Below, piece after piece: positions 23,840 to 58,200 of a DNA stretch of 64,000 nt (positions within the stretch are counted from its first letter, which is position 1; every line of letters begins with the position of its first letter). This stretch comes from Carposina sasakii (lineage: Eukaryota > Arthropoda > Insecta > Lepidoptera > Carposinidae). The notes beneath the pieces are model-generated. The model saw only the letters and a list, made by a program, of their open reading frames with translations, did not search any database and was not told where the DNA came from. The stretch is from the NCBI GenBank assembly GCA_014607495.2, contig CP053156.1, positions 11,346,001-11,410,000 on the forward strand, written 5' to 3'. A program made the position numbers and the translations under genes.

Positions 23840-24152
23840 CCTCCTAGACTCCGTCCGCGTGGACTACAGAAAAAAAAAACAAAATATCGAAATTATCCGA
23901 GATAAAAACATTTTCCCGGGATAAAAAGTAGGCGCCTATATGTTAAGTGGGACCTGTCACAATATATTCCTGAAAACTGCATCGAAATTGGTTCAGCAAC
24001 AAACAAACAAACAGACAAACCGACAAACAGACAAAAAATCCAAAAATCATTGTTTTGGGTACTATTGCGTTGATAAAGGTATTCTATAATATTTTTTCTT
24101 ATATATCTTCCATGTACAGACAGCGATCCGTTACATTTTTATTATATATATA
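23840..24152 (-). repeat. CGCGGACGGAGTC-family repeat interrupted by the gypsy element
   Basis: Inverted copy of the 5341-5640 family ending TTTTTATTATATATATA at 24152. Its continuation TATAGATATAGATAGATT lies after the right LTR at 29246, so the retrotransposon split this repeat. Confidence 0.8.
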
Positions 24153-24588
24153 TGTCGGAGATCAAGATGTCATATCCTACAGTCGGATCTCCAACGCCAT
24201 CTATTTTCAATCGTTGAAGTTAGAAACGTCAAGTCGACAGCTATCACTGACTTGAGGACAGCTGTCACTTGGGTAAAGACAAGACAGAGTACTGAGAGGG
24301 CGCCACTGTAGATTTACAACGACCACCGGGTCGTTTGAATGGAGCCGGAGGGTATTCTGTCTTGCTGGTTGCGTCTGTCGAGCGAAGCACGGGTGCTAAT
24401 CAGCCTCTGTCTTGTACTTACCACGTTTCTACGTTATCCGCTAGAATCCTAGTAATCTTGTGCGTAGATACAGTGAAAGTGTTTGTGATTCCTAATTAAG
24501 CTTGTTTACTACACGCCGCATTCTTTATTTCGGATTTTGGAAGATGTCGGACACACCTAACGGCACGCCAATCGACCCATCTACGTCA
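24153..24588 (+). repeat. 5' LTR of the gypsy element
   Basis: It matches 28810-29245 over its whole 436 bp by eye. It contains an inverted pair GACAGCT..AGCTGTC. Its last 45 bp include the gag ATG at 24544, unlike the usual layout in which gag begins after the primer-binding site. Confidence 0.9.
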
Positions 24589-26304
24589 TCAGGCGTGGGA
24601 TGCAACCCGGATCACCCACATGAAACACGTGCTTCAAATAGTGACTCGAGCGAAGAAAAATGGCGTCTTCTCTTCGAGCAACAAAATCAAAATTTTCTGG
24701 CGTTGGTGCAAGCAATAAAACTACCTGCATCTTCGGACTCTATTCGCCTTCCTGATTTCGACCCAGAGAAAAGAGACATCGACGCCCGAGCTTGGATAAC
24801 GACCGCGGACATGTGTATCACAGACCGACATCGCCATGGATCTTCTCTGATGATCGCGTTAAACCACGCACTCAAGGGCGAAGCATCATCTTGGCTGTCT
24901 TCAATATCGTTTCCTAATATGACGTGGGCCGATTTTAAGGAGCTTTTCGTAGCAAGGTATGACTGTCCTGAAACTGCTGCTTCCTTTTTCATCAGTATGC
25001 ACGACAAGAAACCGAGAGAAAACGAGTGCCTGGCCTCATACGCCGCTACCCTCATAACATCCTTAATGGCAAGGTGGAATGGACTGACTACAGAACAGAT
25101 AGCAATAGCCACTGTCTTAGCTCATATTTCAAAACAAGAGCCACGTGTTCAGAGGATTGCTATAACGACTGACATCAAGACGCGTAACCATTTACAAAAG
25201 GAACTGAAGGCTGTCTCGTTCCTGAAGAGAAGTTATTCGTCAAGTATTTATCGTGATGGACCCGACCTAAAAAGAAACCGACCTAAAGGATCTGCTGTGA
25301 TCATCAAGTGCTTTAATTGTGGACAACTAGGCCACAAATCTCTTCAATGTCGCAACAAAGCCAATTCGAAGAAGCAAGATGACCGGTCCAAACACAGGTC
25401 CTTTCACGGGGACCATAACTCGACCAACCAACCTACAGGGAGAACCGATCGCATCACCTGCTTCAACTGCCGGGAACAAGGCCACTATGCATCCGACTGC
25501 CCGAAGAGGAAAATCAAGGAGGGGAACAACGGTACCGGCGGCGGCACTGGAACTGATCCAGCTAAGGAAAAGAGAGTAGACGTGTGCATTGTGAATGCGC
25601 CTTCGGGTTCTCTGCGTCACTCTGGTGAGTCATTCCCATTTACTTACGACTCAGGTTCAGAGTGTTCCTTAGTTAAAGAATCGATTGCTTTGAAATTTAG
25701 TGGTAAGCGAATTTATGACAATATTTCTATGACTGGTATAAGACAAACTTCTATAGCCTCGACCATGCAAATTTTAACGACAATTGACATTGACAATATT
25801 AACTTTGAGATACTCCTTCATGTTTTACCTGACCATTGTTTGCGATACAACATTATGATCGGACGTGAAATTCTAGTTATCGGTTTGACTGTACATATGT
25901 CGGTAGATAAAGTACGTATCGAGAAAATTAACATAGTCGAATCATGTGATGTAGTTGCAAATAATGGTATAGACCTTGACTTGGTAGATACTGACGTTAG
26001 TAATGAATACAGACCTAGGTTGATTGAGATTTTAGAACGGTTCAAGCTTAGTTTCATTACCGGTACACCTACTTCTCCTGCTGACACTGAACCTATGCAG
26101 ATACGGCTCGTAGACCCGCACAAGACGGTAAATCGTCGCCCATACAGGCTGACCCCAGATGAACGTCAGATTGTGAGGGGCAAGATCAACGAGCTGCTTA
26201 ATGCTGAGGTAATTAGACCTAGTTCTTCACCGTTCGCAAGCCCGATACTTTTGGTAAAAAAAAAGACGGTTCAGATAGAATGTGTGTCGATTATAGGGAG
26301 TTGA
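24544..26304 (+). CDS. Gypsy gag-protease-RT(5' part) polyprotein, frameshifted
   Basis: The frame is open from 24502; the ATG at 24544 (ATGTCGGACACACC) is the likelier start because the preceding 14 residues are LTR leader. Counted from 24502: capsid-like region up to about residue 260; CCHC knuckles at about 270 (CFNCGQLGHKSLQC) and 320 (CFNCREQGHYASDC); aspartic protease DSG at 383-385; RT fingers near the end (ASPILLVKK). A run of nine A followed by G at about 26255-26264 shifts the frame, and RT continues in the -1 frame in the next ORF. Gag coats the RNA, protease cleaves the polyprotein and RT copies the genome. The frame break probably inactivates RT unless bypassed. Confidence 0.85.
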   Translation: MSDTPNGTPIDPSTSSGVGCNPDHPHETRASNSDSSEEKWRLLFEQQNQNFLALVQAIKLPASSDSIRLPDFDPEKRDIDARAWITTADMCITDRHRHGSSLMIALNHALKGEASSWLSSISFPNMTWADFKELFVARYDCPETAASFFISMHDKKPRENECLASYAATLITSLMARWNGLTTEQIAIATVLAHISKQEPRVQRIAITTDIKTRNHLQKELKAVSFLKRSYSSSIYRDGPDLKRNRPKGSAVIIKCFNCGQLGHKSLQCRNKANSKKQDDRSKHRSFHGDHNSTNQPTGRTDRITCFNCREQGHYASDCPKRKIKEGNNGTGGGTGTDPAKEKRVDVCIVNAPSGSLRHSGESFPFTYDSGSECSLVKESIALKFSGKRIYDNISMTGIRQTSIASTMQILTTIDIDNINFEILLHVLPDHCLRYNIMIGREILVIGLTVHMSVDKVRIEKINIVESCDVVANNGIDLDLVDTDVSNEYRPRLIEILERFKLSFITGTPTSPADTEPMQIRLVDPHKTVNRRPYRLTPDERQIVRGKINELLNAEVIRPSSSPFASPILLVKKKTVQIECVSIIGS

Positions 26305-27530
26305 ACGATAACACCGTTGCTGACCGTTTTCCTTTACCACTCATATCTGAACAAATTGCTAGGTTGCATGGAGGACATTTTTTTACAATTTTAGATTTAG
26401 CATCGGGATTTCACCAGATCCCTATCGAGTCGGAGTCCATAGAGCGCACAGCATTCATGACAACTGAAGGTCAGTATGAGTACCTTACTATGCCCTTCGG
26501 TTTGAAAAATGCTCCTGCAGTGTTTCAACGTGCTCTCATACATGCTCTAGGCGATCTCGTGAACAAGTACGTTGTAGTGTACATGGATGACGTGCTAGTT
26601 GTGGCCAGTAACATCGACGAAGCTTTCGATAGACTAAAGGTAGTATTAGAAGTTCTTTCTGGGAAGGGATTTTCGTTAAATCCTAAAAAGTGCTCATTCC
26701 TGAAAGAAAAAGTAGAGTACCTAGGCTTCGAGGTGCGCCGAGGTCAAATTCGTCTGAATCCACGAAAGATAGTTGCACTTACCGCTTTACCACCGACCGG
26801 CGCTCTTAATAATCAAGGTAGATTTTATGATTTTCATTTTGAATCGGGTGCTGAGTGTTCACTAATAAAAGAAAGCGTTGCATCAAGTTTCAATGGTAAA
26901 AGAATTGCTAAAACTGTCTCTCTAACGGGAATTGGTCAAACCAGTGTATTCAGCACCCAGCAAATACTGTGTAATGTTGAAATTAATGATTATTGTTTAG
27001 AACTTTTATTACATGTTTTACCCGATGTGTATATGCGTAGTGATATTATGCTAGGTCGTGAAATATTGAGTCAAGGCTTCGTTATTAACTTGTCAACAAA
27101 TAATTTTAGCATTTCAAAACAAAATAATTTGACAGTTTTAAATTGTGACGTTTTAACCGATTCTAGTATCAGTAACGACTTTAGTAATGTTGACACAGAT
27201 ATACCCTCTTGTAAAAAGTCAGATCTTTTAACTATTTTAGGTGAATATTCCAGTTATTTTACAACAGGTTTGCCAAAAACTCGTGTAACTACAGGTGAAC
27301 TCGAAATTCGATTAATTGATCCGAAGTATAGAGGTCCTTTTAGGGTATCGGAGGTACTTGAAGGTAATCGTTATGTTCTTAAAGCCCTTAATTCCAATAG
27401 AACCTATAAGTACGCACATGACAGACTTAGGCGAATGCCTGCGAATGACATTACCAATGACATGCTGACATGTGACCGTGATGATAATCTGTGCGAACTT
27501 GACGGGGATGGACCGTCATGTTCAAATTAA
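26280..27530 (+). CDS. Gypsy RT core fused to second protease segment and integrase tail
   Basis: 416 codons in the open frame; the ATG is internal to RT, so this is a continuation rather than a true start. Residues 1-170 hold RT motifs: MCVDYREL, LDLASGFHQI, MPFGLKNAP and the catalytic YMDD at 26580-26591. After LTALPPT (about 26800) the sequence jumps to a second protease-like block with ESG at 26841 (catalytic D replaced by E) followed by ECSLIKE. It then jumps near 27318 to an integrase C-terminal GPY/F-like tail (RGPFRVSEVLEGNRYVLKAL). RNase H and integrase catalytic domains are skipped. This looks like recombination between related elements. Confidence 0.85.
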   Translation: MCVDYRELNDNTVADRFPLPLISEQIARLHGGHFFTILDLASGFHQIPIESESIERTAFMTTEGQYEYLTMPFGLKNAPAVFQRALIHALGDLVNKYVVVYMDDVLVVASNIDEAFDRLKVVLEVLSGKGFSLNPKKCSFLKEKVEYLGFEVRRGQIRLNPRKIVALTALPPTGALNNQGRFYDFHFESGAECSLIKESVASSFNGKRIAKTVSLTGIGQTSVFSTQQILCNVEINDYCLELLLHVLPDVYMRSDIMLGREILSQGFVINLSTNNFSISKQNNLTVLNCDVLTDSSISNDFSNVDTDIPSCKKSDLLTILGEYSSYFTTGLPKTRVTTGELEIRLIDPKYRGPFRVSEVLEGNRYVLKALNSNRTYKYAHDRLRRMPANDITNDMLTCDRDDNLCELDGDGPSCSN

Positions 27531-27760
27531 TGTTGAGTTGACTGATTGAGAGTGGTTTACGGATACCGGATAGAGGTATTCAAGAGTCACTGGATGGAAG
27601 TGACTAGACTGGTATACGGAAGCTGGATGGAAGTTTCTAAGAGTCACTGGATGGAAGTGACTAGACTGGTTTACGGAAGCTGGATGGAAGTTTCCAAGAG
27701 TTGCTAGATTGAGGCAACTAGACTTACTTGACTGACGTTACTCTATATGGATTGTGTATA
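27500..27760 (+). repeat. Stem-loop array 1 (GGATGGA loops), including 57-bp tandem repeats
   Basis: Consecutive hairpins with a 7-nt loop: GACGG/CCGTC (27501-27517), ATACC/GGTAT (loop GGATAGA), AGTCACT/AGTGACT (27585-27605), GGAAGCT/AGTTTCT (27618-27638), AGTCACT/AGTGACT again, GGAAGCT/AGTTTCC, AGTTGCT/GGCAACT (loop AGATTGA) and TATAT/GTATA (loop GGATTGT). Pairs of these form a 57-bp tandem unit starting at 27582, 27639 and 27696. Stems differ but stay paired. Confidence 0.85.
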
Positions 27761-27790
27761 CTGTAGCCTTGTTTTGGAATTATTTACCTT

Positions 27791-28160
27791 GTGTGTGCCA
27801 TGCCGTTTGGTTTAAAGAACGCCAGTTCAGTTTATCAGCGGGCTATAGCAAAAGCTTTAGGTGAATTAGCTCATAGTTATATTGTTTCTTACATTGATGA
27901 CCTGCTGGTATTGTATTCTACAGGAGAGCAGGGGTTGGAACGTCTACGACGTGTCTTAGATGTGTTCATTAAGAATGAAAAACGTAATCAAGTTAAACTA
28001 GATCCTAAATTTTAAGGACCGTATAAAATTTAATTGTTAGATGGTGATAGATACCGACTAAAATCTTTGTCTTCAAATCGAACCTACAAATATTCGCACG
28101 ATCGGGTCCGTAGGGTGCCAGACCATCAAGTTCCTAGTAATTTTGATATCGAAATTAATG
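27791..28160 (+). pseudogene. Second, divergent gypsy RT fragment plus GPY/F tail
   Basis: 27796-28014 encodes RT palm residues (MPFGLKNASSVYQRA, then YIDD for the catalytic box) and stops at KLDPKF. It is followed by an out-of-frame piece resembling the GPY/F tail at 27321 (NRTYKY.HDR.RR.P). The sequence differs from the first RT, so it comes from a related but distinct element. No function expected. Confidence 0.75.
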
Positions 28161-28254
28161 TGACCTCAGAGTCTAAATGAATGAATTTTCATATGCGATG
28201 TACAAGTTACTGACCGGTTTTTTAAATTGTGACTTTGACAAACCCTTGACAGAC

Positions 28255-28490
28255 AGTAGTATGTATTTGTGGCAGAACCGAAGGACCGAGTTTCTGCTGT
28301 AGCCGATGGACAGTGCTACATGTGTGTGTGTGGGAAACCGAAGGACCGTGTTTCCGTAGTAGGTAGCCGATGGACTGTGCTACATGTGTGTGTTGGAAAC
28401 CGAAGGACTGTGTTTCCATAGTAGATAGCCGAAGGACTGGCTATATGACTAACTGTTACTGTAATGTTGACCGAAGGAAAGGTCTGACTG
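28255..28490 (+). repeat. Stem-loop array 2 (GAAGGAC/GATGGAC loops)
   Basis: Hairpins: GCAGAA/TTCTGC (28272-28297), TGTAGC/GCTACA (28298-28320), GGAAAC/GTTTCC (28333-28355), GTAGC/GCTAC (28363-28383), GGAAAC/GTTTCC (28395-28417), ATAGCC/GGCTAT (28425-28444) and GACC/GGTC (28469-28484). Loops all carry CGAAGGAC or CGATGGAC or a close form. Two stem types alternate in a tandem repeat of about 62-65 bp. Confidence 0.85.
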
Positions 28491-28659
28491 ATTTAAACGT
28501 ATGTGCGAGTCTGCTTATCTTTTATTTTTTATGTCTTTACGTAAAGATTTTGGGAACTTGACGGTCGGTGAGCGATTTTTGTGATTTCATGAACTATTGT
28601 AATAAGAAGTCTTTAAATTTAAGTTAAGGCAGAATGGCCGAGCGCAGATACTTCCTTGA

Positions 28660-28809
28660 GTTATCTTGTTCACAGATTCATCGGTTCTACCGAGGACGGG
28701 TAGTCTGTCAAAATGGTCAGAAAGACCGAGCGTGATACATGTTACTTTGCAAAATCCTCTTTCTTTCCAGAAACCCCACGCGAGGACGCGTGAGTTGTCA
28801 AAATGGCCG
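28660..28809 (+). repeat. Further stem-loops before the 3' LTR
   Basis: CTACC/GGTAG with loop GAGGACG (28687-28703) and CACGCG/CGCGTG with loop AGGA (28777-28792), plus GGTC/GACC around AGAAA near 28715-28727. They resemble arrays 1 and 2 in loop composition. The polypurine tract expected directly before an LTR is not evident. Confidence 0.6.
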
Positions 28810-29245
28810 TGTCGGAGATCAAGATGTCATATCCTACAGTCGGATCTCCAACGCCATCTATTTTCAATCGTTGAAGTTAGAAACGTCAAGTCGACAGCTA
28901 TCACTGACTTGAGGACAGCTGTCACTTGGGTAAAGACAAGACAGAGTACTGAGAGGGCGCCACTGTAGATTTACAACGACCACCGGGTCGTTTGAATGGA
29001 GCCGGAGGGTATTCTGTCTTGCTGGTTGCGTCTGTCGAGCGAAGCACGGGTGCTAATCAGCCTCTGTCTTGTACTTACCACGTTTCTACGTTATCCGCTA
29101 GAATCCTAGTAATCTTGTGCGTAGATACAGTGAAAGTGTTTGTGATTCCTAATTAAGCTTGTTTACTACACGCCGCATTCTTTATTTCGGATTTTGGAAG
29201 ATGTCGGACACACCTAACGGCACGCCAATCGACCCATCTACGTCA
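28810..29245 (+). repeat. 3' LTR of the gypsy element
   Basis: Appears identical to 24153-24588, including the first 15 gag codons at its end, then returns to the interrupted host repeat (TATAGATATAG). Confidence 0.9.
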
Positions 29246-30071
29246 TATAGATATAGATAGATTACAAATAAAACTTTATTTTCATGATTTTCTTATGAAA
29301 TAATACGATAAAATCCGACTAATTTCGTCCTTATGTGTTTATATATCGTACTAAAGTACAATACTGAATGGTAGTTTTCAAATAGAAATTACAAATTTAC
29401 TAATACCTTGTAGGTATACAAGGTTTTTCCAGATCTACCAGAGCATGTCTAAGCCCATCTCCAACTTGGAAGCGTGCCCTTAGCGTTAGGACTGGCGCAG
29501 ACGACGTAATTACAAGCACGCTCGCGAGGTGAGCGCCCGCGGTCAGTGATCTCTGCCCGGTGTCTAACCTCATCTTATTCAAACTGCATTAATCTATTGT
29601 GAATTCTGTTTAACAAGATCCAGTCTTTGTTAGTTTTAATAATTAATTCATACTGTTTGTGTACTAACTATAGGTTTGTTTTATCGAGGTATTTTGCGAC
29701 TTCTTTTGGGTACTTAATGAAAATATGATCGCAAGTTAATGTTAGTCCAAAAAACACTACAGCAATTTTTTTAGGATTTAATAGATGAGTGTGGTGCCTG
29801 GATAAATTATCTTGGAACCAATGTTTAAATTTTATATCTGTTAATTAGATTATACAATTTAACTTTATAAATGTATACTTTACGTTAGTTGGTAGGTACA
29901 TGTGTGGCTTACTTAAAACTTTGTTCAGTTTACAATGGACAGATCAGAAAAGAAAAAAAACTAATTTTACAATTTTCGTATTTGCAATGTCATGTTACAC
30001 GATTCTGGTACTTATTTTGTATTCAATTAAGTGAGCTGCTTATTACAAATGGCATATTTTTATGTTTTATA
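29246..30071. other. Intergenic stretch, nothing recognised beyond the host-repeat remainder
   Basis: The first 30 bp complete the repeat split by the gypsy insertion. No gene is recognised in the rest. Confidence 0.45.
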
Positions 30072-30290
30072 CAGGGTGTAACAAAAAGGGTATGTTAAGC
30101 GAAAAGCTATATGAACAGCCCACGGTAGAGAACCTATCCACAAAATTTGAGACCCGAAATCACATGTTTATTTTTCCGGATAGGTAGTATGGAGAATTTT
30201 TAAATATCTCAAGAATTTTCATACAATCTTGAAAAATAAAAATGTGATTTCGCTTGACATACCCTTTTTGTTACACCCTATATATCAATA
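30072..30290. mobile_element. MITE with TACAGGGTGTAACAAAAAGG termini (family M4)
   Basis: Terminal inverted repeats of about 26 bp: TACAGGGTGTAACAAAAAGG at left, CCTTTTTGTTACACCCTATA at right. About 219 bp, no ORF. Decayed copies at 9940-10205, 18405-18495 and 58418-58625. Confidence 0.85.
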
Positions 30291-30405
30291 GTAATATATA
30301 TATCAATGGAAATGATAAAGTATATTAATTTTTTTGCATATCCGTATCTGTGTTGTCTGTCGTGAACAGACTTCGAAAATTAATCTCAAGCATTTTACTG
30401 GAGGG

Positions 30406-30589
30406 GTTAGTAGTCGATTCGAAATTTGTTCGCACGAACGTGCCAATCGACCCCTAAACGAAACTACATTTTACTAGTACATTGATTACAATACATTCGG
30501 ACGAAACGCCTACTAAAATAATAATTATTTTTGAAAGGGGTCGCTTGGCACGATCGTGCGAACGAATTTCGTACGAATCGACTACTAAG
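30406..30589. mobile_element. MITE with TTAGTAGTCGATTCG termini
   Basis: The left arm (TTAGTAGTCGATTCGAAATT, then TTCGCACGAACGTGCCA) is inverted at right (TGGCACGATCGTGCGAACGA, then CGAATCGACTACTAA). Arms of about 48 bp with a few mismatches; about 184 bp in total. Confidence 0.8.
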
Positions 30590-30599
30590 CCTGCTGCAA

Positions 30600-39386: not shown

Positions 39387-42282
39387 ATGGATATGGACCA
39401 AGAAACAGCAAGAAAGCTTTTAATAGAAGGTGGGACGTTTGTTTTTCTAGGAGTTCCAGAAGAAACGCAATTCGGCATAGATATGCAATGCTGGAACACC
39501 GATGAAGATTTCAGAGGAATAAAGATGATTCCTCCAGGACTTCACTACCTACATTATTCTGGAGTCAGTAAGGGGACAGGCGACGTATCACCCAGGTATG
39601 ATAGTATGCAGAAATAGGGTCAGATATTCAATGGAAGCCAGTTAGTCAAGCTGGCTTGATTTGGCAAAGCATTTAGATTTTTTTTTTTTTTTTTTAGTTT
39701 ATCCCGAAGGAAAGGCAAGGGGAACTAAGCCCATACAGCCTAATCATTGTTTAGTAAAATGTATTCTGAATTTATGATGAATGACAATGATGATGAATGG
39801 AAACGTCGGGAAAATCCTCAAGAACAAGTGTAAAGTTAGTCAAAATGAAAAATTATTGCAGAAACAACTTACATGCGCCCATGAAGAGATCGTAATCCGG
39901 CTAAAGTTTTACTCGGCTTACCTGCGTATAAAACCATGCACACGCACTAGATTCACATCACAAGTAATCAAAATATAACTTATCTACCAGAAAACATCAC
40001 TTTACGGACACATGCAAGCCATTTACAAACAATTTTTCATTTTCACAAGAAAATTACACCTGCACCCTTCCAGTTTTTCCCGCCGAATCCAATTCAGAAA
40101 TTAATATTTATACTTACATAAATTAGGAATAGTAGCTAACACAATGTGCTGGATGGATATACCTAGAATACTCCTTGATAGATAATTTCTCATAATTATA
40201 CTTACAGATCTGGCTTTATGCATTTCTTTGAAAAGAAAACATTTCTTGTGAAAATGTGGGACAAAAAAACAGAAGATATCAGTAAAGAGGAAATAAGTGA
40301 AGAAAGCATACAACGGCTGTACACAAACTTATTGAATCTAGACAGATATTTGGCTCCATACCCTTATGAAATATGGCAGAAATGGAAATCGCTATCATCT
40401 CAAATAACTGGTAAGAAGTACAAACTTACTTGAAATAATTATATACAACCTATTCGACTGACATTAAACTAAGAATATATGTTTTGTTATAATATTTTAT
40501 ATTATATTATATACATGATAATTTTGTCTGTGACTTCTTTCTAACTGTTCTCTGAAACTTGATCAAGGTAGAGGCAGCATTAACTTTATCCCTCAGATAG
40601 GCTATCTGACTTTTGGAAAAATCATCACTTATAAAAAATAAATATAAACTTATTTATATATAACTTTTTTAAATATTTTTAGTTTTAAATCTATCTATCT
40701 ACTAAGTTCTGTTTGTGTATAAAAACTGATCAATCACTTATAAAATTTCAGCACCTCTAGCAGCAAAACTATCACCGGTCAGTGGTATAATAAGGGCATC
40801 AGTCGAACTGCTGTCCACACCAGACTCAGAAAGACCAAGGGGAGTGAAACCTTCAACACCCACCACTGAGAATCAGGAATCACAAGAGAACAAAGAAGAA
40901 ACTCCCTCATCTTCCACTGACACTGAAGAGTCTCCATCACAGTCTGATGCTAAGAAAGCTAAAAGGGTCACAAGAAAGGAAAAGGAGGAAGCTATGTTGC
41001 CACTTTTGAAACCGGCACCAGGTAAATTTAACATTCCTTTTGGATATTCTTCTGCCCACATCAGACTAGCTACACTGCATATTATTATAAATAGATTAGC
41101 TCACCTGGCATTGGCTTAATGAGGTCCAATTTGGCTCCAGCTGAAGCTTTGTCCCTTACTTACCCACAAACATTTTTTTAAAAATTGTGTCTTTCTATCA
41201 CAACTAAACTGAGCAAGCATGTGTAAACAGTCCACAGCATTGGATAGGTTGCATACTTACATACATTTTGATGTACACCTTCAGTAACTAAGTGATTTGT
41301 TACAGTGGCCATATGTCTATTTTGCATAGGGGTTCAGTACCTATTTATTGTTACTATTATATTATCTTAAATATTGCCTCCTCCTTACCAAAATGAGCTA
41401 TTCAGGGTCAAAATATAGCATTCCTTGTGTTTGTGCATTTGTTACAGCAATTTTCATTGAATTCCAGGTACAGCTATGCGGTTCACAGAGATCCCTCAGG
41501 ATAAATACCCACCTGGGTCCACACCAATGGAGATCACAAAGCATTATCTAGACCAGTCTTATACACTGGAGTTGATGATGTCCCAACATGATGAGTAAGC
41601 TAATATTTTTATCTTTTTCAAGGTTGCCCACAGCAGCTAGATGTGCTTGAAATCTCATTTTATATTGCATGATGTATATTCTGTTATTGCAAGATCTTTT
41701 ATCAGAACAACTGTAAACAATTAATTTTAGTCCTAGCAGATTTCCTAAAACCTAGGATAGAAGTTGTCATAATTTTAAAACTACCACAAACTTTCATGTT
41801 TATCAAGTACCTACTGTTGTGGCTGTTCATTATAACTATTAATTTATTTTTCCATTACTTTCAGACCATTACACATAATTGGAGAGTTGCAGTTTGCCTA
41901 CCTCTGTTTCCTAATTGGTCACTCACTTGAAGCCTTTGAACATTGGAAAAACCTTGTCATCCTACTCTGCTCCTGTGACGACGCCATACACAAACACCAT
42001 CAAGTTTTCGTGCAATTCATAAATACGATAGAAGTACAGATAGAGGAAATGCCAGAAGACTTCTTAGCAGACATTGTTATGAATAAGAACATAGTGTATA
42101 AGAAACTTAGAGAGTTATTCAGAACAGCACACATGAGCAATATTGATCAGAGACTGCTTTCAATGATGTCTAAATTTAAGAATAATTTAACTGAGAAATT
42201 ACAGTGGGACTTCACTGGATTAGATGCTGATGATGAAGATGAAAGACCTGTGATAGTGAAACTACATCAAGAGGATGATTAA
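39387..42282 (+). CDS. AAR2: AAR2 splicing factor homolog (five exons)
   Basis: Exons 39387-39595, 40208-40410, 40752-41021, 41468-41594 and 41865-42282 give 408 residues with consistent phases and GT-AG introns, close to the roughly 384 residues of vertebrate AAR2. AAR2 holds Prp8 during U5 snRNP biogenesis and is released before the mature particle forms. Recognised from the N-terminus (FGIDMQCWNTDEDFRGIKMI, then PPGLHYLHYS), PYPY..WQKW in exon 2, EITKH in exon 4 and LGELQFA-like GELQFAYLCFLIGHSLEAFE, HWK in exon 5. Exon 3 adds a low-complexity Ser/Glu/Lys-rich insert of about 60 residues. The ATG is the first in the open frame and matches the family start. Intron 1 holds an inverted R1 retroposon. 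Confidence 0.95.
39678..40090 (-). mobile_element. Retroposon R1, antisense copy in AAR2 intron 1
   Basis: Poly(T) at 39678-39696, then TTTATCCCGAAGGAAAGGCA through CTTCCAGTTTTTCCCGCCGA. Opposite orientation to 38877-39298, so the pair could fold back in a pre-mRNA spanning AAR2 exon 1. Confidence 0.8.
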
Positions 42283-53586: not shown

Positions 53587-54659
53587 TAAACCAACTACGT
53601 TACAACAGCTGTATGCATTAAAACATTCATAAATATATTGTTAACCTAGGTACTTATGTACTATATGTTTTGGGCTTTCAAACTCAAGTGAATAGCTGCC
53701 TTATTACGTCATATTCCTATATATTTAGAAACATCTATAATATAACGAATTACATAAAACCTGCTACAAACAGGATAATGAAGATATTTAAAATGCCGTT
53801 AGACATTTGCTTATTATAAGTGAGGTGTAAATTCTTTAAAATACTTTGGGGCGCTTAAATATATATGGATTTGCGGTAATTATACTAGTTATTTTCCTAT
53901 AGGTAGGTAATAAGTAATACCTATGGGGCTATACCAACAAATTATAATGTGTGTGCCGCTTAGTACCTACCTAATGGTCTATCGTTCGATTCCTATGGTT
54001 TTTAAGGAATGTATAAGAAGATAGGTAGGTACATGATGTACTTGGACTAAGGTAATGCACTTACCTATTTTATTAAATTAAATCTTTATTTGACACAAAA
54101 ACATAACAATAAAATAAAACGTTTAGTTTTAAAATTAGCTACGTAGGTACACCTGCGGTATGTTTCCATACATCAAAAAGATAACTTTGTGAAACTAGCA
54201 GGCGTACCTAACAGCTGAAATAAACAATACATAAGCCTAAATAGGAGCAACCACACACAGGATAATTTAACGTCATGCAAGGCTTAGATTTTCTACCACA
54301 TAGATTGCTAACGTTGAACGTAGAGTGCGTTTTACCGTAAAGTTCCTTTGGATGATGGCGCTAGTTACTATATAGCTAGTTGAGTGCAGTCAATGCATAC
54401 AAAAAATGTTAATTCCGAAATCAAGCATAGGAGTCTGTTATTCTATGAAACGGTCTCTAGCGACTGATTTGGGCGTTTCACGTTTTAGTTATGTTTACTC
54501 GTTCCCGTTGTTTACTATGGAGCCGTGTCGTCATGCTATGCGCCATCCTGAACCATGCACCGTCGACTCCCCGGGAGACTGACAACATTATTACAAGATA
54601 CCTATACTTAGATGAAACAACTGAATAGATATCCAAAAAAAAGTATAACAAGGTCAGTA
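53587..54659. other. Spacer, nothing recognised
   Basis: AT-rich with short GGTAGGTA-type runs. No coding or repeat structure. Confidence 0.4.
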
Positions 54660-54672
54660 GGCTGATTACGCA

Positions 54673-54748
<76 letters not shown>

Positions 54749-55142
54749 AAGCAAAGCGACAGCAAAATTTGTAAGTACCTACGATTTTCTCGTTCAAATG
54801 TCAAATTCTTTTGAAATTGCTGTTTTGCAATACGAATCGCTATCGCATATGCTTCGCTTTCACTAGTTATGGTAATAGGGGGGCCGAACGGTCAGTCTCC
54901 AGAAAATAACGCTGATTTATCTGGCTTTCATTTTATAAATATCGAAAAGGCCAGCTATATTTATATACGTTCTTCTTACTCTTACATGACGCTGTCTCCG
55001 AAAAAGTATCCACAAGAGGCGATATGTACTACATTGCGGGTATAAGCTCCGGTAAGCTTCACTTCCCCTGTGCGCTAACAATCACAATTTTCGCTTTCGC
55101 ATTGCTACCGCTTTGCTTTTGCAAATTACTTAATCAGCCCAC
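54660..55142. mobile_element. MITE with TTTTGCAAAAGCAAAGCGAC-type arms carrying a long (TA)n tract
   Basis: AAAAGCAAAGCGACAGCAAAA at about 54747 is inverted as ACCGCTTTGCTTTTGCAAA at about 55109. A TA run of about 67 bp (54675-54741) lies at the left edge, near GCTGATTACGCACC, matched at right by TACTTAATCAGC. A shorter cousin is at 56741-56925. Confidence 0.65.
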
Positions 55143-55291
55143 CAATTTCCAAACCATTGCAAATTTTCTTGTATGGTTTAAGATATTCTATTATATTGTA
55201 CCTTTATGACTGAAAATGAATGTCTTTCGACAATAGTTGAGTCTGACGCCTCTAGAGAATACTGGACGCGATTTCTATTGGGAAAAGTAAG

Positions 55292-58200
55292 TTATTTGGT
55301 ATCGGAGTAGGTTGGCTTGTGGTAGGTGGCTCGAAGCAGTTCGTCCTTGTATGCGGCTAGAATGGCGCGCGACATGCTCGCATCTCCTGCCATGTTCTCG
55401 ACGAATTGACGCATTAGTCTGGAAAAGAAAAGTTTTAGAATTAGAAGAGCGATGGAGTGGTTGCAATTCATACATTGTCGTCGATTTTTGGTAAACAAGG
55501 AAATTGGTCCCGATTCGTTAGTTTTGTGTTCGACTGACGAATCGCAACCACACTTACCTACGTGAAGAGTTAATGGGTTTCACTTCAACCCTTTTTAACA
55601 ATGTCCGAGTTTACCTGTTAGTAGGATTGACACCAAGTGGTTCGCGAGGCTGCAGTATCTCTGGGTGGTCGCCGATCGTGTCGGTGAGTGCGGCAATCAT
55701 CACGTCTGAAGATAAACACCATATTGGTTAGATAAAGGTACACCTGTACTAGTAGAAAGTAAATTGAGTTGTGAATTTATGATATTCAATGTAGGGCTAC
55801 AAATTTAGCCTGCTGCTGAATCACTAGTTACATTTGCCTTCCGCCATAATAATTCTTCGGGCCTGTCATCAGAGCAACGGCAACAATATCTTCTGTGATC
55901 TAATAAGCACATTTGCCTTCCATCAAGAACATGCTATGCTGCTTAAACACCGACCCAACGATCGCCAATGAAGGATACGAGTATTCTGCGTTAGCTGCTG
56001 CATACTTTCGAGGGTTACAGCGCTAACTACATCCTACTATAATATTATAAACGCCAAAGTTTGTAAGTATGGATGGATGTGTGTGTGTTACTCTTTCACG
56101 TAAAAACGGTTGGAGCGATTTTAATCAAATTTAGTATGGAGTTAGCTGACACCCTGGATTAACACATAGGCTACTTTTTATCCCGGATAATTTCGACATT
56201 TTGTTTTTTATGCAGTCGTCGCGGCCGTTTACTAGTTGAACAAACGGCTACTATTCACACTGAGTTATCTCTAATAGCCAGTGGCGTAACTTTACCGAGG
56301 CCCGTGGCAAATTCACCGGATGCCCTCGCAAATAATATTGGGATTCTCCTTTGACCCTTTCCGGCTAGGGCATTTTGGCATTTACCAACATGCCACACTG
56401 TAGAGACGCCCCTGCCGATAGCTCAAATTGTTAGAGGTAAAACAATACGAACCCAGTACTTTCTTCTCAATGGTCCTCGATAGATGGCCCCTCTCCGCCT
56501 CGAGCTCTAAGAAGGACATGAACCGCTGTGTTGCCGCGCGAGCTGACGCCGGGTCCCGTGACAAGGACTGGGAAAACATCATCTGAGAACAGGAGATGTA
56601 AGACTATAGTAACTCGGGATTATTACATAGTAGATACATCAACTGAGTTAGGTATTAACTGCACTTTTTGTAACAATATCTTCTTCAAGACTGATTTTCT
56701 GTGATTGAAATCATAAGTCGTCAGATTCAAGGGTGAGCGGCCCCTGATTACGTAAAAGCAATAGCAAAGCGATAGCGAAAATTGTACAATATTCGCCTTG
56801 AAATGTCAAAAATCCTTTAAAAATCATTTTGTAATACGAATTTGACAAGCAATCCGCGATTTTTGTACAATTTTCGCTATCGCTTTGCTTTTGCTAGTTA
56901 GGTAATAAGGGGGCGGAGCCCGGTAGAGGTTTGTCCTAAATATTATAAAATTATTAATAAAGAAATGGAAAAAATTCTTCACCCGAGTGGGAATCGAACC
57001 CACGACCACTGCATACCGCGCTAGTTGCTCTAACCACTGAGCCACCGGGTCAATTACTCGGATGACGAATTTTACCATCTCTTTTCTAGATTACATATTG
57101 GCAACGTTATTTTTCATCCCGATAGCTATACACTAGCCAAATCTCGGCAAACAAAGCTGAATCCCTCAGCACAATGTTTAAAGATGAAACGATCAACCCT
57201 ATCCTAACGGATTATATTAATGGAGAAGTGTTTTTATAAATTTATACCTACACACGTCTGTGCTCCCGAAATGGCGTAGTCAGGACTGCAGCATCATAAA
57301 CTACAGCTGCAACTATAGATGATCAGTAACAAGGTGCTAGCTAACCACTTTAGAGAAAACCCGACGTCCTTAGGTGGACGACTGATGTTCGACTGGGATT
57401 CTCATCCTATTAAAGACGTACCAAATAAGATTTCCGGCAATCTTAAATACCTAAATAACCTAAATATATAAATAAGATGTTGGTACACAATAAGAAGTAG
57501 ATACTTCATTCCGGGCAAAGAAAGTGCCTGTTATTATTCCACGTGGATCTGCTGAGATCCCATTGTTTGTAAACCTGAACAAAGGTCAGGTCAAAGGTCG
57601 TTGGCTGTACCTATTCTCAATCCCCAATTCTATTTATATCATGATAAATGTCGGCGCGTCAAAGCGCGCTTTGTTGAAGTAAATTACTTTGAAACATGAT
57701 ACAGTAGGGTTGTATTTGCCTAATCTGTGAAATACTGCCGACTCATCGATGAGGGTTGAAGATTGGGTGAGGTAGGTACCTATTTGTACGTTATTAAGAG
57801 AGTTTATTCTAGGGTCCTGAGCTGCATCTCCTTCCGTGCAAATCGTAAGAGTCGAACAAGGAGCTTATGGATGTTGTCCGATGTTTACATCTGATCCGGC
57901 TTTGCTAAACGTGGCTGTGAGATCTCCTTCGCGACCTTGAAGTTCTGGCCACCCCATTTTGTGCATATACCTATTCATGTTGACGCAAATTCTTACCTTA
58001 GCTAGTTGGTAAATGATTTCTTCAAGAGTGTACTCAGTGTACAGGGTGTCGGCTGCCTTCAGCTTGTCCATCATCTCTTCATACTCTTCCTCGCTGATGA
58101 TTGATCCATCGCGGTCGTAGTCGGATGTACCTGAAATACACATTTAATATTCTTTATATAGGTGTAATAGAAAGGGTTTTTTTCTACACACTACACAACA

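Follow-up and report, generated by a model that had tools for sequence, protein, structure and literature searches.

The window, a 64,000-nucleotide (nt) stretch of the Carposina sasakii genome (assembly GCA_014607495.2, contig CP053156.1, positions 11,346,001 to 11,410,000 of the forward strand), contains a young Ty3/gypsy-type long terminal repeat (LTR) element at 24153–29245, and the 3' part of this element (27500–28800) carries two arrays of small hairpins with a shared purine loop. The hairpins are real, and they give an otherwise ordinary young retroelement an unusual RNA-like feature. What sets them apart is the shared loop, not the number of hairpins, and the part most worth following is a hairpin with the loop GAGGAC shortly ahead of the 3' LTR, which is common to about ten linker types. 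Tentatively, the hairpins may constitute a multivalent packaging signal bound by Gag.

Hairpins of the 3' region

Sixteen hairpins were counted, seven in array 1, seven in array 2 and two near the 3' LTR, including one with a bulge and one with a 4-bp stem. Array-1 hairpins have a 7-bp stem and a 7-nt loop of GGATGGA or close to it, array-2 loops are GAWGGAC or close to it, and both LTR-side hairpins have the loop GAGGAC. The initial annotation of the window had described at least 14 hairpins over 1.3 kb, with the same loops and coordinates. Each array lies directly behind its own integrase C-terminus. The hairpins are as follows:

27495–27523, plus strand: H1, array 1, loop GGATGGA; overlaps the last integrase codons
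27561–27581, 27585–27605, 27618–27638, 27642–27662, 27675–27695 and 27699–27719, plus strand: H2–H7, array 1; 57-bp two-hairpin unit
28272–28297, 28298–28320, 28333–28355, 28363–28383, 28394–28418, 28425–28444 and 28469–28484, plus strand: the seven hairpins of array 2; 62-bp two-hairpin unit
28687–28703, plus strand: N1, loop GAGGAC; the window copy is short of one stem C, other copies being CTACCC-GAGGAC-GGGTAG
28777–28792, plus strand: N2, CACGC-GAGGAC-GCGTG, LTR-proximal, 17 nt ahead of the 3' LTR; has a counterpart in other families

When the hairpins were folded singly, five of the seven array-2 loops opened as AAGGAC or AUGGAC and those of array 1 as GGAUGGA or close to it, while N2, and N1 of other copies, exposed AGGA closed by a G-C pair. 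A(N)GGA is the common core of arrays 1 and 2 and of the GAGGAC hairpins by this folding. An exposed purine loop on a stem-loop is present, as judged from sequence and single-hairpin folding. Upstream in the element (24153–27494) the motif occurs three times, with stems of just 0–4 bp. A coding role for array 1 was considered and rejected: its 57-bp unit keeps the reading frame open (27546–27707), but the array-2 unit, at 62 bp, is not divisible by three.

Comparison with chance

The region 27480–28830 was compared with 300 dinucleotide shuffles, counting perfect stems of at least 5 bp with loops of 4–13 nt. It contains 22 such stems, against a shuffle mean of 10.5 and maximum of 21 (0/300 as high), and 11 stems of at least 6 bp, against 2.6 (maximum 7). 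Eleven hairpins carry GAWGGA, GAGGAC or GATTGA in the loop or at its edge, whereas the shuffles, which the initial annotation had proposed as a comparison, give 0.14 (maximum 2; 0/300 as high). The hairpin total is ordinary for the window, where equal-sized stretches have a mean of 21.2 and up to 66; the densest perfect hairpins of the stretches counted lie at 54001–56000 (66 per 1351 bases, of which 55 have stems of at least 6 bp). A perfect stem of at least 5 bp surrounds GAWGGA or GAGGAC at 10 of 14 occurrences on the plus strand of 27500–28800 and at none of 32 found in the window beyond the element (Fisher p = 2.5e-7), counts that are not independent because neighbouring units are tandem duplicates.

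Covariation and folding

The six distinct hairpins of array 1 have 97.6% standard pairs, compared with 62.6% after shuffling, and both sides have changed at all seven pairs; on none of five measures did any of 500 shuffles reach the observed value. Their 49 pairs comprise 43 Watson-Crick, five G.U, no A.C and one T.T. This composition favours sense RNA, since wobbles in the sense strand are mismatches in the antisense strand. The double changes pointed out in the initial annotation are correct: two between AGTCACT/AGTGACT and AGTTGCT/GGCAACT, which additionally differ by one change to T.G, and one between GTAGC/GCTAC and ATAGC/GCTAT. Its statement that loops are steadier than stems agrees with the invariant columns of array 1 (5/7 in the loop, 0/14 in the stem). 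For array 2, the four of seven hairpins with an 11-nt loop and no bulge were used; these have 95.8% standard pairs, compared with 79.2% after shuffling (12/500 as high), and three of six pairs are doubly changed, which 180 of 500 shuffles equalled.

Drosophila gypsy carries tandem sites for a transcription or insulator protein, and short tandem inverted repeats with a fixed core could be double-stranded DNA sites of that sort. Such a role is very improbable here, as the stem letters vary while pairing is kept, whereas a DNA-binding protein would need fixed letters, and in duplex DNA the wobble pairs would serve no purpose.

On the sense strand, array 1 has a folding z of -4.0, and its hairpins reach pairing probabilities of 0.70–1.0 in local folds. 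Single array-2 hairpins fold with -5.0 to -8.9 kcal/mol; the sense strand of this array is G- and U-rich and folds well even when shuffled. A search of 24100–29300 against Rfam gave one match, below the gathering score, and none above it.

The LTR-proximal hairpin in other families

The pattern CAC-N-C-GAGGAC-G-N-GTG was found at 36 places outside the family of the window element, in ten linker types, with no control matches, and is located 16–18 nt ahead of the presumed LTR edge. These places include all nine integrase ends found in other families. One or two GAGGAC hairpins per family precede the presumed LTR (L088:513–542, L089:469–484, L090:471–486, L091:252–267 (minus strand)), and in family W two stand side by side. 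A search for arrays of GAGGAC loops elsewhere gave 0 matches (reversed control, 13).

This hairpin could instead aid reverse transcription through plus-strand primer choice beside the LTR, the arrays being by-products derived from it by slippage. Its short distance from the presumed LTR edge, where it adjoins a conserved GGCCG end, fits such a role, as does the presence of AGGACGG within the primer region of several linker types. We regard this as unlikely, as the arrays, situated behind the integrase gene, are found hundreds of bases farther upstream and have stems that are compensated among units.

The host element is a deletion chimera

The two LTRs are 100% identical over 437 bp by self-BLAST, begin and end with TG...CA, and are flanked on both sides by a TATA target-site duplication read from the sequence. 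The parts of the element are as follows:

24149–24152 and 29246–29249: target-site duplication TATA, read from the sequence
24153–24588, plus strand: 5' LTR, TG...CA; self-BLAST to the 3' LTR, termini read from the sequence
24496–26304, plus strand: open frame with Gag and its CCHC knuckles (Pfam zf-CCHC, 2.5e-10, two stretches), a protease-like part (by eye) and the start of reverse transcriptase (RT)
26223–27530, plus strand: open frame with RT (YMDD; Pfam RVT_1, 7.9e-33), a second protease-like piece (by eye) and an integrase C-terminus up to TAA
27315–27470, plus strand: first integrase C-terminus (P0032 residues 699–750); stop at 27530
27797–27964, plus strand: RT fragment of a second element (P0032 residues 31–86; Pfam RVT_1), abutting the next part
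27962–28180, plus strand: integrase C-terminus with stops, second element (P0032 residues 687–758 at 27962–28174), aligned to the first C-terminus
28810–29245, plus strand: 3' LTR (self-BLAST)

The Gag zinc knuckle and the RT, most of which is encoded, are of Ty3/gypsy type (zf-CCHC, RVT_1). The best named relatives found for the RT frame come from insects (Ty3-I, opus, K02A2.6), moths and butterflies included. A search for relatives on viral contigs found none, and prokaryote contigs gave a single 24% match, in a bacterial record, to an integrase part. The first ATG of the Gag frame (24544) falls within the 5' LTR, and the frame continues past the LTR end (24496–24588).

RNase H and the integrase core are absent from the window copy, and only the integrase C-termini are left. 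The two C-termini are clearly related, yet diverged, and the DNA behind them has a best BLAST match of 9 bases. The window copy is a deletion chimera to which two different elements have each contributed a 3' end with its array.

Copies of the element in the genome

In the source genome (399 Mb, 31 contigs), the 40 scored of 379 candidates for 27500–28800 are 98–100% identical where they match. With up to three mismatches allowed, a 32-base anchor taken from between the arrays was found at 342 sites (control, 0). Triple motifs of array 2 number 1020 (reversed control, 4) and those of array 1 number 912 (reversed control, 138). Copies with both arrays are estimated at about 220, as 22 copies supply 100 array-2 rows among the matches listed, so that the two-array form appears to be in the majority (about 220 of 342 by this estimate).

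Ten loci were compared with the window. Five part from it upstream of 27316, a pattern expected of a longer pol; all five are without array 2, as are L032 and L035. In L040 (the locus of L022) and L041, parts of RNase H and integrase are retained, and array 1 alone follows right behind the integrase stop; L041 is without part of RT. At L047, on contig C1, two element copies lie in opposite orientation about 1.6 kb apart.

Array 1 was surveyed in 51 loci, or 50 distinct copies, since L048 and L086 are the same copy; the 382 hairpins retained have no more than one mismatch in the loop and four or more of the seven pairs intact. The array is mostly 181, 238, 295 or 352 bp long, in 57-bp steps of two hairpins, and a few copies have other lengths. 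The array-2 piece (n=24) measures 272 bp in 18 copies, 334 bp in five and 274 bp in one, with a main step of 62 bp. Tandem repeats of variable length are found between pol and the 3' LTR. A few array-1 hairpins shift among G-C, A-U and G.U. For a comparison at equal length, pieces were taken from 49 loci and the window, yielding array 1 from 49 of the 50 sequences, array 2 from 24 and the LTR-proximal piece from 17. The same-length rows, window included, have seven variable sites in array 1 (n=25) and three in array 2 (n=18), too few to judge compensation. Apparent compensation in a first count of copies was rejected, as copies with extra units are aligned against non-corresponding units, which gives a false appearance of it. 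Locus L009 was left out of the covariation analysis; perfect stretches alternate there with garbled ones, which was read as a likely local assembly error.

Length changes of mostly whole 57- and 62-bp units would also be expected of ordinary unstable tandem repeats, expanded by slippage, with arms kept alike by templated copying and without function. The 3' untranslated region (UTR) tandem repeats of plant Tat/Ogre elements are described as hypervariable (PMC7004042, in the part cited), and the unlikeness of the arrays between families and the uncompensated changes in genome copies fit this explanation as well. It leaves unexplained the G.U pairs without A.C, the similar loop of arrays 1 and 2 and the LTR-proximal hairpin, and the conservation of that hairpin over ten linker types, and is improbable to the same degree as the role in reverse transcription.

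Arrays of other families

Tandem repeats behind the integrase end are present in families W, X and Z too; their cores are GTC-TGTGT-GAC (W), GCC-TTGGT-GGC alternating with GTC-TTGGT-GAC (X) and GCC-TGYGT-GGC (Z). Of the loop matches, 14/17, 10/18 and 6/19, respectively, have arms of at least 3 bp. Family Y has no such array within its 701 bases; its stretch folds well (z -2.6) through longer pairings. Repeats behind pol are found in several families, and strong purine-loop hairpins were seen only in that of the window. In family W, L088:83–360 is a regular 16-bp tandem repeat behind the integrase end, and the three copies of this family differ in the spacing between integrase motif and hairpin (451–586).

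The different loops of these arrays, together with the 3' UTR position behind pol, suit RNA sites for a host protein in the manner of a constitutive transport element, acting in export, stability or localisation of unspliced RNA. Many host RNA-binding proteins suit short identical loops. This explanation is possible though rather doubtful, and ranks second. An element-encoded partner suits better a GAGGAC loop bound to a near-fixed LTR distance and to this element group.

Proposed function

Of the functions considered, packaging by Gag ranks first, followed by the host-protein site, with the role in reverse transcription level with neutral repeats. The hairpins would act as RNA within the genomic transcript of the element, each small stem displaying a purine loop with the A(N)GGA core. 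The oldest member is probably the single CAC-N-C-GAGGAC-G-N-GTG hairpin ahead of the 3' LTR, kept across this Ty3/gypsy group; in the family of the window, the same loop type would have been multiplied into arrays behind the integrase gene, whose length changes mostly in steps of two hairpins. The best candidate for a partner is the Gag that the element itself encodes; its two CCHC knuckles would bind unpaired GGA. The serial loops may recruit several Gag molecules and so mark the RNA for packaging into particles, perhaps also for dimerisation.

This proposal is placed first because of the common A(N)GGA core, the precedent of a purine loop in mouse mammary tumour virus (MMTV) and the dependence of Ty3 on its UTRs or POL. 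In MMTV, the purine loop of a stem-loop is reported to bind Gag and to be required for packaging (PMC8096270), and localisation and packaging of Ty3 RNA are reported to have relied on UTRs or POL (PMC4974528; PMC11381356). The same two Ty3 papers, in the sections cited, describe the packaging sequences of Ty3 RNA as still imprecisely defined, even in yeast.

Several observations weigh against it. The arrays lie at 27495–28792, 3' of pol, and not at the 5' end, where the packaging sequences of Ty1, Ty3 and human immunodeficiency virus type 1 (HIV-1) are placed (PMC11381356, in the part cited), as are those of MMTV (PMC8096270, likewise). Array 2 fails to exceed shuffles on two of five covariation measures, and the shuffle contrasts are overstated, the percentage paired being partly built in because the hairpins were chosen for pairing. 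The antisense strand of array 1 also folds better than shuffles (z -3.7); for array 2 taken as a whole, this holds on the antisense strand (z -3.4) but not on the sense strand (z -0.36; -0.58 in a second measurement). In a long fold, H4 (which falls to 0.01), two array-2 hairpins and N1 have pairing probabilities near 0, the value of 0 for 28469–28484 carrying no information, with its register off by one. One stem pair of the LTR-proximal hairpin is broken in families Y (A.A, three places) and Z (C.U, one place), leaving it weak (-1.6 kcal/mol). The arrays of W, X and Z have loops other than GAWGGA on 3-bp arms, and their stretches show no folding in excess of shuffles (sense z 0.47 to 0.90).

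Copies of the element within the genome bear on the same question. Stem changes without compensation, named beforehand in the initial annotation as evidence against its reading, occur to a slight extent, with a newly broken pair in 11 of the 382 array-1 hairpins; no new double change was found among these hairpins in the 51 loci, and genome copies thus give no sign of compensation. In copies this young, the uncompensated changes may perhaps be plain decay. The suggestion that a structure is under selection is favoured by the covarying array-1 units (7/7 pairs), by loops steadier than stems and by the GAGGAC hairpin near the LTR in other families, but not by between-copy compensation or array-2 folding. 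The claim of a shared loop stands for arrays 1 and 2 and the LTR-side hairpins, and not for the arrays of other families.

A variant of the Gag proposal, which we consider quite unlikely, treats the loops as a family-specific address. Every related family would bear its own loop array behind pol together with the common LTR-proximal loop, and Gag would read the array, so that the two joined arrays of the window element would let it be packaged by particles of either family. Such a double address, if true, would help to explain why the two-array form of a pol-depleted element seems to predominate.

The chimera could serve as a natural experiment on how a defective element competes for the particles of another, and an element group with the loop fixed near the LTR, and multiplied behind pol in one family, offers a testable candidate for Gag–RNA recognition.

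Relation to known systems

Arrays of A(N)GGA hairpins are familiar from the bacterial Csr/Rsm sponge RNAs (CsrB, RsmZ), which likewise display many small hairpins with A(N)GGA loops on one RNA. The likeness is one of layout only, since the window holds a eukaryotic retroelement and not a bacterial CsrA-targeted RNA. The packaging stem-loops of HIV have GGAG-type loops. Retroviral packaging stem-loops such as MMTV SL4 ssPurines (PMC8096270, in the part cited) resemble the present hairpins in having a GGA-type purine loop on genomic RNA and a Gag with CCHC knuckles; they differ from the arrangement here, known from sequence alone, of arrays of two-hairpin units and an LTR-proximal hairpin at the 3' end.

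The statement in the initial annotation that it knew of no described element with this layout is partly wrong. Plant Tat/Ogre LTR retrotransposons do have 3' UTR tandem repeats, whose sequence and unit length differ between families (PMC7004042), and the tandem repeats located here between pol and the 3' LTR likewise vary among families. Compensated hairpins and a conserved LTR-proximal hairpin are not described in the cited portion of that account (PMC7004042). Tat/Ogre are plant elements, whereas the nearest named proteins of the window element come from insects. Within Ty3/gypsy, the LTRs, the Gag–RT order and the integrase C-terminus are as usual, and the window copy is unlike in being chimeric and without RNase H and integrase core. 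No earlier account of such arrays in an insect element was found in the titles or opening lines of abstracts of the open-licence papers searched.

Other repeats in the window

Inverted repeats lie behind the element at 30068–30591, where self-BLAST matches 30404–30591 to itself at 71% and 30068–30104 to 30248–30284 at 95%. Three copies of the segment TTTAGTTTATCCCGAAGGAAAGGCAAGGGGAACT, a repeat without flanking stems, are found at 39706, 44835 and 46005.

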